Translations under genes and position numbers: made by a program | Part shown: in pieces, positions 42,711 through 46,355 of the stretch | How the letters are laid out: every line of letters starts with the position of its first letter | Numbering within the stretch: position 1 is the stretch's first letter | Notes under the pieces: model-generated | Told to the model about the DNA's origin: nothing | The model's input: the letters and a program-made list of their open reading frames with translations, nothing else | Databases searched by the model: none | NCBI GenBank assembly: GCA_013154375.1 | Contig: JAADCR010000001.1 | Location: 1 to 47,125, forward strand | Reading direction: 5' to 3' | Origin: Aquificota bacterium | GTDB taxonomy: Bacteria; Aquificota; Aquificia; Aquificales; Aquificaceae | Length of the DNA: 47,125 nucleotides

Positions 42711-43481
42711 TTATCCGAACCGGCCGGTGATGTAGTCCTCGGTGAGCTTCTTCTCGGGTTTGGTAAAAAGCTTCTCCGTAGGGCCGAACTCCACCAGCTC
42801 GCCCATGTACATAAAGGCCGTAAAGTCGGATATCCGTGCCGCCTGCTGCATGTTGTGCGTCACTATAACTATCGTGAGCTTCTTCTTAAGCTCTTCTATA
42901 AGCTCCTCTATCTTGGCCGTGGATATGGGGTCTAAGGCGGAGGTGGGCTCGTCTAAAAGAAGTACCTCCGGCTCGGGAGCTATGGCGCGGGCTATGCAGA
43001 GCCGCTGCTGCTGGCCGCCCGAGAGGGCGTAAGCGTTCTCGTGGAGGCGGTCCTTAACCTCGTCCCAGAGGGCGGCGTCCTTTAGCGCTTTCTCTACCTT
43101 CTCGCGTAAAACCTTTTTGTCCTTTACGCCCCTTAGCTTCAGACCGTAGGCCACGTTCTCGAAAATGGACTTGGGGAAAGGGTTGGGCTTCTGGAAGACC
43201 ATACCTATCCGCATCCGCACCAGTATGGGGTCTACGTCTTTACCTATAAGGTTTATACCCTCAGGGTATAAAATGGCCTCGCCCTCGTAACGGGCACCCT
43301 CGTAAAGGTCGTGCATCCGGTTAAAGCACCTGAGCAGCGTCGTCTTACCGCAGCCGGAGGGGCCTATAATGGCCGTAATCTTACGCTCGTAGACGGGGAA
43401 GGTGATGTTCTTAAGCGCGTGGAACGAGCCGTAGTAAAAGTTTAGGTTCCTGACGTCTATCTTTACGCCCTTTTTTTCCAT
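42711..43481 (-). CDS. pstB: Phosphate ABC transporter ATPase PstB
   Basis: 256 aa from the ATG at 43481; an ATG five codons upstream (43496) is also in frame, but it lies inside the TAAAAT box. PstB powers high-affinity phosphate import. Walker A GPSGCGKT is at 40-47, signature [14 protein letters not shown], Walker [15 protein letters not shown] and H-loop [13 protein letters not shown] follow, and [11 protein letters not shown] is specific to PstB. It is transcribed away from pstS-pstC-pstA, whereas the common order is pstSCAB on one strand. No phoU follows. Confidence 0.95.
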
Positions 43482-43562
43482 GGCCCGTTTTGTCATTTTA
43501 ACAGCCCCCTCTTAACCGTTTCTTAACGGAGGGGCGGAATAATATAGATGAGGGGTAAGGAG
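43482..43562. promoter_or_regulatory. Divergent pstB / pstSCA control region with 11-bp repeat
   Basis: Two CTTAAC copies at 43511-43516 and 43522-43527 repeat with an 11-bp period, the layout of PhoB-type (Pho box) sites. On the plus side TAATAT (43540-43545) follows after 12 bp. On the minus side TAAAAT (43500-43495) follows after 10 bp. The site is thus placed like an activator replacing the -35 for both promoters. An inverted CCGTT/AACGG (43516-43529) overlaps it. The pstS leader then contains AAGGAG next to the ATG at 43563. Confidence 0.5.
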
Positions 43563-44573
43563 ATGAGAAGAAGGGAGTTTCTAAAGGCGCTCGGCGGCGT
43601 GGTCTTTCTGCCTTACCTGTCTTTCGGCGACGAGGTTATAAACGGGGCGGGAGCCTCGTTCCCGGCCCCGCTCTACTGGCGCTGGGCTGCCGAGTACTAC
43701 AAAGAGACGGGCATTCGCGTTAACTACCAGTCTATAGGCTCGGGCGGTGGCGTAAGGCAGATAATTAACCGGACCGTAGACTTCGGCGCTACGGACGCCC
43801 CCCTAAAGCCCGAAGAGGTGGAGAAGTACAAACTCGCCCAGTTTCCCACGGTGGTGGGGGGTGTAGCCGTAGTTTACAACCTGCCCGGCGTTAAAGAGCT
43901 CCGCCTATCGGCTAAGGCCCTCTGTGCCATATTTATGGGTAAGGTCCGCTACTGGAACGACCCTATTATCCAGCGCGACAACCCCGGCGTTAAGCTGCCC
44001 AAGCGCCGCATAGCCGTCGTCAGACGGAGCGACGCCTCGGGCACCACTTGGATATTTACCAACTTCCTGTCTAAGGCCTGTCCCGAGTGGCGCGAGAAGG
44101 TCGGCTACGGGAAAGCCGTAAAGTGGCCCACGGGCATAGGCGCTAAGGGCAACGAGGGCGTGGCCAATTACGTGCGGCGCGTCCGCGGAGCTATAGGCTA
44201 CGTCGAGTTTGCTTACGCGCTCCAGAGCAAGCTACCTTTTGCACTGGTAGAGAACCGCGAGGGCAACTTCGTCCCGCCCTCGGTGGAGACCTTTAAAGAG
44301 GCCGCCCGGAACGCCTCGTGGGAGCCCGAGAAACACTTCTACGAAGTACTAACTTGGCAGCCGGGCGAGAAAGCCTACCCCATAGCCGGAGCCACCTTCG
44401 TACTGCTGGCCCGCGACCCCGACCGTCAGGAGATAAACCGTAAGGTCGTAGCCTTCTTCGACTGGGCCTTCCGTAAGGGCGACGCCATAGCCCTCGAGCT
44501 CCACTACGTCCCGCTACCTCAAGAGGTAAAAGACAAAGTAAGGGCCTACTGGAAGTCCTATGGGTGGCTATAA
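43563..44573 (+). CDS. pstS: Phosphate-binding protein PstS, probable Tat substrate
   Basis: 336 aa from the ATG at 43563; an in-frame ATG at 43548 is too close to the -10 box. PstS is the periplasmic phosphate receptor of the Pst transporter. The start MRRREFLKALGGVVFLPYLSF is a twin-arginine signal (R-R-E-F-L-K then a hydrophobic stretch). The mature part begins INGAGASFPAPLYWRWAAEY and has VNYQSIGSGGGVRQI, DFGATDAPL, and RSDASGTTWIFTNFLS, the phosphate-binding loops of the family. It overlaps pstC by 14 bp. Confidence 0.94.
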   Translation: MRRREFLKALGGVVFLPYLSFGDEVINGAGASFPAPLYWRWAAEYYKETGIRVNYQSIGSGGGVRQIINRTVDFGATDAPLKPEEVEKYKLAQFPTVVGGVAVVYNLPGVKELRLSAKALCAIFMGKVRYWNDPIIQRDNPGVKLPKRRIAVVRRSDASGTTWIFTNFLSKACPEWREKVGYGKAVKWPTGIGAKGNEGVANYVRRVRGAIGYVEFAYALQSKLPFALVENREGNFVPPSVETFKEAARNASWEPEKHFYEVLTWQPGEKAYPIAGATFVLLARDPDRQEINRKVVAFFDWAFRKGDAIALELHYVPLPQEVKDKVRAYWKSYGWL

Positions 44574-45522
44574 GCGGCTTAAAGACAAGCTCCTCGACAA
44601 GCTCGTCTTCGTTCTGCTGTTTCTCGTAGCGCTTTTCGTCGGGCTACTGTATCCCGCGGTGGCCCTCTTTACGCTCTACGGTGAGGCCCGGCCCGCCTTA
44701 GAGCGCTTCGGCCTTATAGGCTTTATAACGGGCACCGAGTGGGACCCGGTAAGGGAGCTCTTCGGCGCTCTGCCTGCGCTTACGGGCACGCTAATCTCGA
44801 CCTTTCTGGCCTCCCTGCTGGCCATACCCGTCTGCATCGGCATAGCCGTCTTTATCTCCGAGCTCGCACCCAAAGCTCTTAAGCCCGTCTTTACCACCGC
44901 CGTGGAGCTGCTCGGCGCCATCCCGAGCATAATATACGGGCTGTGGGGCTTCTTCGTCGTAGCGCCTTTTATGGCCGAGAAGGTGGAGCCCTTCCTTCAG
45001 GAGCTGCTACTCGGCCTGCCCGTCTTAGGCCGGCTGGTAGACGGCGTCCCGACGGGCATAGACGTACTCACCTCCTCGCTCGTGCTCTCGATAATGATAA
45101 TCCCCTTTATGGCCACCATAGTAAAAGACGCCTTCGAGATGACGCCGCGGCTGCTTAAAGAGGCCGGCTACGGCCTCGGCGCTACCAAGTGGGAGGTCAT
45201 AAAAGACGTCGTAATACCTTACGCCTTTCCGGGGATAGTCGGCGGCGCCGTCCTCTCGGTAGGGCGCGCCTTAGGCGAGACCATGGCCGTCGCCTTTTTA
45301 ACGGGTAACGTCCACCAGATACCCAGAAGCCTGCTCGACCAGTTTACCACCATAACCGTCGCCATAGCCAACGAGTTTACCGAGGCCGACACGGAGCTCT
45401 ACCTCTCGTCGCTCTACGGACTGGCGCTCATACTCTTCGTTATGTCCTTTACCTTGCTGGCGCTCAGCAAGTTTTTACTTTTCAAGAGGTTAGAGAAGCG
45501 ATGGGCGGTAAAGGGTCTTTAG
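44560..45522 (+). CDS. pstC: Phosphate ABC transporter permease PstC
   Basis: 320 aa inner-membrane permease with about six hydrophobic segments. Family marks are ALPALTGTLISTFLASLLAIPV, ELLGAIPSIIYGLWG, and the coupling loop EAGYGLGATKWEVIKDVVIPYA that contacts PstB. GRALGETMAVAFLTGN is also typical. It overlaps pstS by 14 bp and pstA by 22 bp, so the three are expressed together. Confidence 0.95.
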   Translation: MGGYKRLKDKLLDKLVFVLLFLVALFVGLLYPAVALFTLYGEARPALERFGLIGFITGTEWDPVRELFGALPALTGTLISTFLASLLAIPVCIGIAVFISELAPKALKPVFTTAVELLGAIPSIIYGLWGFFVVAPFMAEKVEPFLQELLLGLPVLGRLVDGVPTGIDVLTSSLVLSIMIIPFMATIVKDAFEMTPRLLKEAGYGLGATKWEVIKDVVIPYAFPGIVGGAVLSVGRALGETMAVAFLTGNVHQIPRSLLDQFTTITVAIANEFTEADTELYLSSLYGLALILFVMSFTLLALSKFLLFKRLEKRWAVKGL

Positions 45523-46355
45523 AGAGAGCCGTAAAGCTCCGCAAGCTAAAAAGCACCTTCTTTTTAAGCCTATCGTTCTTAACGGCTCTTTACGGGCTCT
45601 TCTGGCTGTTCTGGATACTCTTCGACGTCTTCTCGAAAGGGCTTCCTAACCTCTCTTTAGAGCTATTTATAAAAGACCCGGCTCCGCCGGGTGAGGAGGG
45701 CGGCGGGCTCAGGCACGCCTTTATAGGCCACGCGATAGTAACCTCTCTGGCCGTGCTCATAGGCGTGCCCGTGGGCATAGCCGCCGGCGTGTTTTTTACC
45801 GAGTACGGCCGCTTCAGCAAGCTCGCCGAGTTTCTCAGGACCGTAACCGACTCGCTCGTCTCCCTGCCTTCTATAATAGTAGGCACGCTCGTGTACGCCC
45901 TGCTGGTAAAGCCCGTGGGCCACTTCTACGGCCTTAGCGGCTCCGTGGCTTTGGCGCTTTTAATGCTGCCCGTAATAGCCGTAACCACTGCCCAGATGCT
46001 CAAGCTCGTACCCGACTCGCTCCGCGAGGCCGCTTACGCCCTCGGCGCCTACCGCTGGCAGGTTATAAAAGACGTCTCGTTGGCGGCGGCTAAGCGGGGC
46101 ATACTGACCGGCGTCATTCTGGGCATAGCCCGGATAACCGGCGAGACGGCCCCCCTCCTGTTTACCTCCTTTAACAACTTCTTCACCACCTTTAACCCCC
46201 TCGAGCCCATGGCCACGCTAACGGTCACCATATTTATATACGCCACCGGACCTTACGAAGAGTGGCACGCTCAGGCTTGGGCCGCCGCACTGGTTCTTAC
46301 CCTCGGCACGCTCGCCTTCTTCGTGCTGGCCAAAACGCTCTTAAGACGCGGGTAG
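45501..46355 (+). CDS. pstA: Phosphate ABC transporter permease PstA
   Basis: 284 aa inner-membrane permease, partner of PstC. It has about six membrane segments; GGGLRHAFIGHAIVTSLAVL and the ATP-coupling loop EAAYALGAYRWQVIKDVSLAAA identify it, with RITGETAPLLFTSFNN conserved near the end. The ATG overlaps pstC by 22 bp. Its TAG stop is directly followed by the hypB -10 box. Confidence 0.95.
   Translation: MGGKGSLERAVKLRKLKSTFFLSLSFLTALYGLFWLFWILFDVFSKGLPNLSLELFIKDPAPPGEEGGGLRHAFIGHAIVTSLAVLIGVPVGIAAGVFFTEYGRFSKLAEFLRTVTDSLVSLPSIIVGTLVYALLVKPVGHFYGLSGSVALALLMLPVIAVTTAQMLKLVPDSLREAAYALGAYRWQVIKDVSLAAAKRGILTGVILGIARITGETAPLLFTSFNNFFTTFNPLEPMATLTVTIFIYATGPYEEWHAQAWAAALVLTLGTLAFFVLAKTLLRRG

Follow-up and report, generated by a model that had tools for sequence, protein, structure and literature searches.

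A predicted PhoB-type operator of CTTAAC repeats at the divergent pst genes of an Aquificaceae genome

The window analysed here, a 47,125-nt stretch of Aquificota DNA, is contig C61 of a 1.19-Mb draft genome estimated to be 89.6% complete. In it, pstB and the pstSCA genes are transcribed away from each other, and the hexamer CTTAAC occurs twice in the short segment that separates them. A preliminary description had interpreted this pair as a single Pho-box-like element acting symmetrically on two promoters. The locus raises two questions: is the repeat the target of a PhoB-type regulator, and does it act in one direction or in both? As for the first, comparison with related genomes leads us to regard the element, with considerable confidence, as a predicted PhoB operator (Pho box) of the pstSCA operon that would be activated in phosphate starvation through a PhoB-like regulator. 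The second concerns pstB and is taken up last.

The repeat between pstB and pstS

The features of the region are collected in Table 1. Translation of pstS most likely begins at the ATG at 43563 and not at the mechanical ORF start at 43548, which is disfavoured by comparison with congeners and by its position upstream of the predicted transcript start. The ATG at 43563 gives PstS a twin-arginine-like leader (MRRREFLK). For pstB the most likely start is the ATG at 43481; the leader predicted from the sequence is very short and devoid of an evident Shine-Dalgarno motif. The short distance between TAAAAT and this start fits a leaderless gene, a class reported in Aquificae, including A. aeolicus, by a survey (PMC3160421). 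An RNA element between pstB and pstS was considered and rejected, as Rfam yielded no match in the segment from 43000 to 44000.

Table 1. Features of the divergent pst region (window positions; box and -10 elements are predictions)
Feature	Position	Strand	Basis or remark
pstB	42711..43481	-	TIGR00972, 398.3 bits, cut-off 343.2 (NCBIfam); start from congener comparison
pstB -10, TAAAAT	43495..43500	-	10 bp from box at its reverse end; five congeners have 15 bp
Pho box (paired CTTAAC direct repeats, 11-bp spacing)	43511..43527	+, pointing to pstS	sequence and conservation in the family
pstS -10, TAATAT	43540..43545	+	12 bp past box; 10 bp is most frequent in the family
pstS, phosphate-binding protein	43563..44573	+	TIGR00975, 373.5 bits, cut-off 205 (NCBIfam)
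pstC	44560..45522	+	above TIGR02138 cut-off (NCBIfam)
pstA	45501..46355	+	above TIGR00974 cut-off (NCBIfam)

The box reads CTTAACCGTTTCTTAAC, with CTTAAC beginning at 43511 and again at 43522, as originally noted. No other exact CTTAACN5CTTAAC exists in the window, where 0.03 would be expected, or in the entire draft genome (reversed control, 0). At least one such match was present in 3 of 100 shuffled windows. Scored with a matrix built from 17 sites, the box reaches 20.4; the best scores in 40 Markov sequences average 10.7, the largest being 21.8. Another TTAAC, at 43498-43502, was considered as a third repeat and rejected, since it lies 14 bp away and is outside the 11-bp register.

PstS was detected in 37 other genomes, and for 29 of these the upstream region was compared. 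Nineteen of the loci belong to the same family: an exact TTAACN6TTAAC is present in 14, a TTAAT variant in three and neither in two, a box being counted when it precedes pstS or a small ORF just ahead of that gene (loci L003-L014, L016, L018, L019, L021, L024, L025 and L030). No exact box was found in the 10 pstS loci of two other families; the TTAAT variant occurs in two of them (L015 and L017). Genome-wide, YTTAACN5YTTAAC exceeds its reversed control in G011 (6 vs 0), G014 (5 vs 0), G016 (10 vs 0), G019 (5 vs 0), G021 (11 vs 0) and G023 (8 vs 1), and is no commoner than the control in several other genomes (e.g., 4 vs 4 in G006 and 0 vs 1 in G015). Judging from these comparisons, a PhoB-type operator made of CTTAAC repeats appears to recur across the Aquificaceae: a familiar type of regulatory element in a lineage that has received little study.

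Two peculiarities of the pst upstream regions were recorded along the way. At four loci of genera g6 and g9 (L165, L178, L191 and L196, from G011, G021, G048 and G042, respectively), the box is followed by a small ORF of 75-84 codons and then by pstS; the small ORFs that were read have a signal-like start. In G001 (contig C1, approximately 1418900-1419080; L005), the sequence TTCCTAATGTACCGTGTGGAGTTGAAAC occurs three times, running to within 2 bp of the Pho box of pstS; these repeats resemble the terminal part of a CRISPR array.

CTTAAC is a common word in the window's genome because of codon use, as can be seen from the spacing of its pairs: among the matches listed with gaps of 0-16, the gap is divisible by three in 21 of 23. 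The pst pair, the only one of the 23 with a gap of 5, belongs to the remaining two. In five g6 genomes, by comparison, the gap equals 5 in 19 of the 30 listed pairs in the same range. (The tabulation drew on 87 listed rows from the window's genome, G001-G006, G010 and the five g6 genomes, leaving out other g5 rows.) Since CTTAAC pairs in the window's genome are mostly in codon phase, the 105 one-mismatch sites found there, against one in the reversed control, were discarded as evidence. That the pst repeat is itself a chance pair, arising from the abundance of GTTAAG codons in the genome, can be dismissed with near certainty: codon-phase pairs are indeed frequent and shuffling occasionally produces a match, but the pst pair is intergenic and off codon phase, and it is kept in 17 of the 19 same-family loci, TTAAT variants included.

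Spacing and direction of the box

A consensus scan of the window found no -35 partner for the pstS TAATAT or for the pstB TAAAAT, and a sigma-70 promoter with a -35 element was rejected for both. The arrangement initially reported, with one -10 element 12 bp beyond one end of the box, the other 10 bp beyond the opposite end and neither accompanied by a -35, is correct. To place these distances in context, 59 distinct sites (56 of them intergenic) were aligned on the box. A TANNNT hexamer lies exactly 10 bp downstream in 29 of the 59, as compared to a mean of 5.7 and a maximum of 10 in 2000 rotations; the sites are not independent, as the loci were hand-picked around listed matches and phosphate genes (L001-L002 and L032-L141 left out) and orthologous sites were counted separately. 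The full pattern, CTTAAYN5CTTAAYN9-12TANNNT, has 44 matches in 41 genomes, against one for the reversed control. Exactly two are in the window's genome: one at pstS, the other at C47:8808-8840, upstream of a phoB-like gene. None of the six congeners matches the pattern at its pstS site, where four carry TAAAAA or TACAAA at a distance of 10 bp, and in the window itself the pstS -10 is displaced by 2 bp from the forward 10-bp rule of the family.

The CTTAAC box is directional. In 50 of the 56 intergenic sites a gene start (here the mechanical ORF start) is found within 150 bp ahead of the box, and on the reverse side these 56 sites show no -10 peak at 10 bp. There is a small reverse-side peak at 15 bp (6 of the 56 intergenic sites, or 7 of all 59), to which the pstB loci of congeners contribute four. 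A divergent gene lies within 150 bp at 23 of the 56 sites, an example being a CoaBC-like flavoprotein gene opposite phoX (L176); at three sites the divergent gene is the only one.

At four boxes (L164, L177, L173 at 6212, and L189 at 5280), the -10 element is positioned only 7-8 bp before the ATG, an arrangement that suggests leaderless Pho genes. The products behind three of them (L164, L177 and L173) gave no match in Pfam.

Target genes, the candidate regulator and known Pho systems

The first genes behind the boxes include those for PhoU (L171, L190), PhoX (L172, L176, L188), PhoD (L170), a type I phosphodiesterase (L163), Porin_O_P proteins (L187, L201), TonB receptors (L180, L195) and DUF2334 proteins (L162, L173, L192). 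Others have no obvious role in phosphate metabolism: dnaA (L175) and genes for hemerythrin (L165), PHP (L145) and DUF302 (L198) proteins. Pfam assigned no family to 9 of the 40 proteins scanned, which were chosen from a subset of the strict sites. By matrix score, the phoU loci of G014 and G007 reach 16.0 and 16.7, respectively, and the phoU locus of the window's genome 7.0 at best. With a threshold score of at least 9, no box was found at the latter, nor at the pstB genes of G008, G010 and G012; a low score is weak evidence, however, as the matrix missed a CTTAAT box at the pstB gene of G001. The expectation that the repeats should reappear at other phosphate genes was thus borne out in relatives (phoU, phoX, phoD and others), whereas the window's own draft genome has the full pattern at pstS and phoB only.

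Repeats of TTTAAC type with an 11-bp period were also observed near TonB-related genes of Aquifex relatives, namely at L155:2156 and L156:2111 (receptors, relative to which the repeats are reversed) and at L150:3347 (TonB-like). In the window's genome such repeats occur beside a PepSY_TM gene (L142:8864-8915).

The phoB-like gene preceded by a box, G000:C47:7968-8633, encodes the only regulator match in its genome at E below 1e-30. The best match of this protein in G010 is the regulator located beside the pst genes (51% identity; 43% or less for the next). All eight regulators aligned share the motif R[AT][VI]DVH[VI]KH[IL]R in a stretch which we take to be the recognition helix. With 189.6 bits, the protein scores below the cut-off of the PhoB equivalog TIGR02154 (296.2; NCBIfam), a value reached in none of 41 genomes and in 2 of 14 control genomes. 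A phoR-like kinase gene lies divergently across an exact or variant box in G008, G010, G017, G018 and G024. A 926-genome survey published in 2026 places Aquificales among the taxa without an identified PhoP or PhoR, conceding that divergent homologues may have escaped its query (PMC13170248). Boxes accompany the pst genes and also phoB-like and phoR-like ones, which points to a PhoP/PhoR-type pair of divergent sequence in Aquificales.

A small ORF of about 55 codons (M/VKVxVVKxxxQ...KKADVVI) was noticed upstream of phoB, overlapping the phoB start, in the window's genome (L142:2112-2285, minus strand of C47) and in G001, G004, G005 and G006 (L148, L158, L156 and L153). A Pho box or a variant of it precedes this ORF in the window's genome, G001 and G006.

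Direct repeats of similar period are used by other members of the OmpR family as well, and some of the boxes face genes unrelated to phosphate. It is nonetheless very unlikely that the repeats serve an OmpR-family regulator other than PhoB: the targets comprise many phosphate genes along with phoB-like genes, and the genome of the window offers the single regulator match described above. The PhoB-type assignment is also in keeping with how Pho boxes are recognized, the pst site having direct repeats of 11 bp and the same element being present upstream of several phosphate genes. Overall, the Pho-box-like character proposed in the preliminary description receives strong support from footprinting across relatives, gene context, the sharp spacing between box and -10, and the like box at the phoB-like gene of the same genome.

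Nearly the same word and period are found in the PhoP boxes of Bacillus subtilis, which are made of TTAACA-type repeats; these boxes, from the Firmicutes, consist of four repeats and lie on either strand. In E. coli, PhoB boxes are likewise direct repeats of 11-bp units situated about 10 bp before the -10 element (PMC1906773, PMC4415409), with sites at pstS and phoB (PMC10294691); the word, however, is CTGTCAT as opposed to CTTAAC(A) in Aquificaceae, and the spacing in the window is 12 bp. The SphR boxes of cyanobacteria are CTTAACCT repeats with 3-bp linkers (an 11-bp period) that occur at pst and phosphatase genes; they differ in comprising at least three repeats (PMC1906773), whereas the boxes of Aquificaceae, which belong to another phylum, have two and a fixed distance to the -10. 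With two repeats in register, the window falls outside the SphR definition (CTTAACCT, at least three copies). The suggestion that the word is nearer to cyanobacterial CTTAACC than to E. coli CTGTCAT agrees with the sequences given in these sources (PMC1906773, PMC4415409). On the basis of its sequence, the Aquificaceae box can be described as having the geometry of E. coli and the word of cyanobacteria. Among the matches listed in a search of the open-licence literature, we found no description of a Pho box from Aquificota.

Taken together, we infer the following chain of events at the pst box. In phosphate starvation, the phosphorylated PhoB-like regulator (G000:C47:7968-8633) would bind the two CTTAAC repeats head to tail. 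The bound protein would stand in for the missing -35 element and recruit sigma-70 RNA polymerase to the TAATAT -10 of pstS.

One promoter or two

The separation of pstB from pstSCA, flagged as unusual at the outset, proves to be a trait of the window's genus. The divergent arrangement is kept in five of six congeners (L003, L004, L006, L007 and L008), the exception being G001. Outside this genus, seven genomes have pstB inside or just after pstSCA (L161, L165, L167, L178, L184, L185 and G013); in G008 it is on another contig. G001 is informative in that its pstB stands alone, behind a tRNA-Val gene, and carries a forward box of its own (CTTAATTAGCGCTTAAT-N11-TAAAAT). For this reason pstB is probably a Pho gene. 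In the divergent genomes, either pstB borrows the pstS box from behind or this control has been lost. Visual inspection of the divergent region, in the window and in the congeners, revealed no second box facing pstB.

We give a little less than an even chance to the possibility that the box serves pstS only, with pstB relying on a promoter independent of the box, be it the near-leaderless TAAAAT or a weak one further upstream. Such independence would accord with the direction of the boxes, nearly all of which face a nearby gene start, and with the lack of conservation of the reverse spacing. A promoter-like sequence reading toward pstB exists in the window (TTCTCA-17-TATATT, minus strand, 43569-43541); it matches the consensus at 9 of 12 positions and was the one match of the scan, with 0.1 expected. 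However, nothing equivalent is found on the pstB strand of two of the five congeners and only other, weak matches in the remaining three, so that the site is not conserved. Independence from the box is also at odds with the missing -35 of the pstB TAAAAT and with the box at the detached pstB of G001.

That the box also raises pstB expression from its reverse side is plausible. One PhoB dimer site would then drive pstS forward and pstB in reverse, balancing permease and ATPase, a scheme to which we assign an even chance. The TAAAAT of pstB is kept in all six divergent genomes (without a -35 partner in the window), the G001 box marks pstB as a probable Pho gene, and the phoR-like genes offer a parallel case of divergence across a like box. 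A precedent for reverse-side action comes from Streptomyces, where Pho boxes similarly lie between divergent Pho genes, phoU and phoRP, and the repeats run toward phoU even though PhoP activates its own phoRP operon (PMC6283541). That system differs in having two boxes, other genes and repeats of GTTCACC type (PMC4415409). Against action on both sides stands the reverse spacing, which is 15 bp in the five divergent congeners and 10 in the window, that is, about half a helical turn apart. Moreover, reverse-side -10 elements show no peak at 10 bp in general, the small peak at 15 bp includes four of these very pstB loci, and a divergent gene close to a box is a common occurrence anyway. The symmetric box of the preliminary description is therefore not established: the element is directional, the 10-bp rule applies to its forward side (with the window 2 bp off) and the reverse spacing varies.

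The most inclusive picture, in which the phosphate regulon of Aquificaceae is built on CTTAAC boxes and a single PhoB site in Aquifex drives pstSCA forward and pstB backward, at 10 or 15 bp, is put forward tentatively, and we consider it rather doubtful as a whole. If backward action took place at both distances, half a helical turn apart, PhoB would not need to touch sigma in its usual pose. The pstB side may serve as a small natural test of reverse-orientation PhoB action, because the congeners differ by 5 bp and pstB has been relocated in one of them, where it is accompanied by a box. For the family, the analysis offers a predicted operator and promoter rule, CTTAAC-N5-CTTAAC-N10-TANNNT, for the phosphate regulon of a deep thermophilic lineage, one that could be used for listing new Pho genes.
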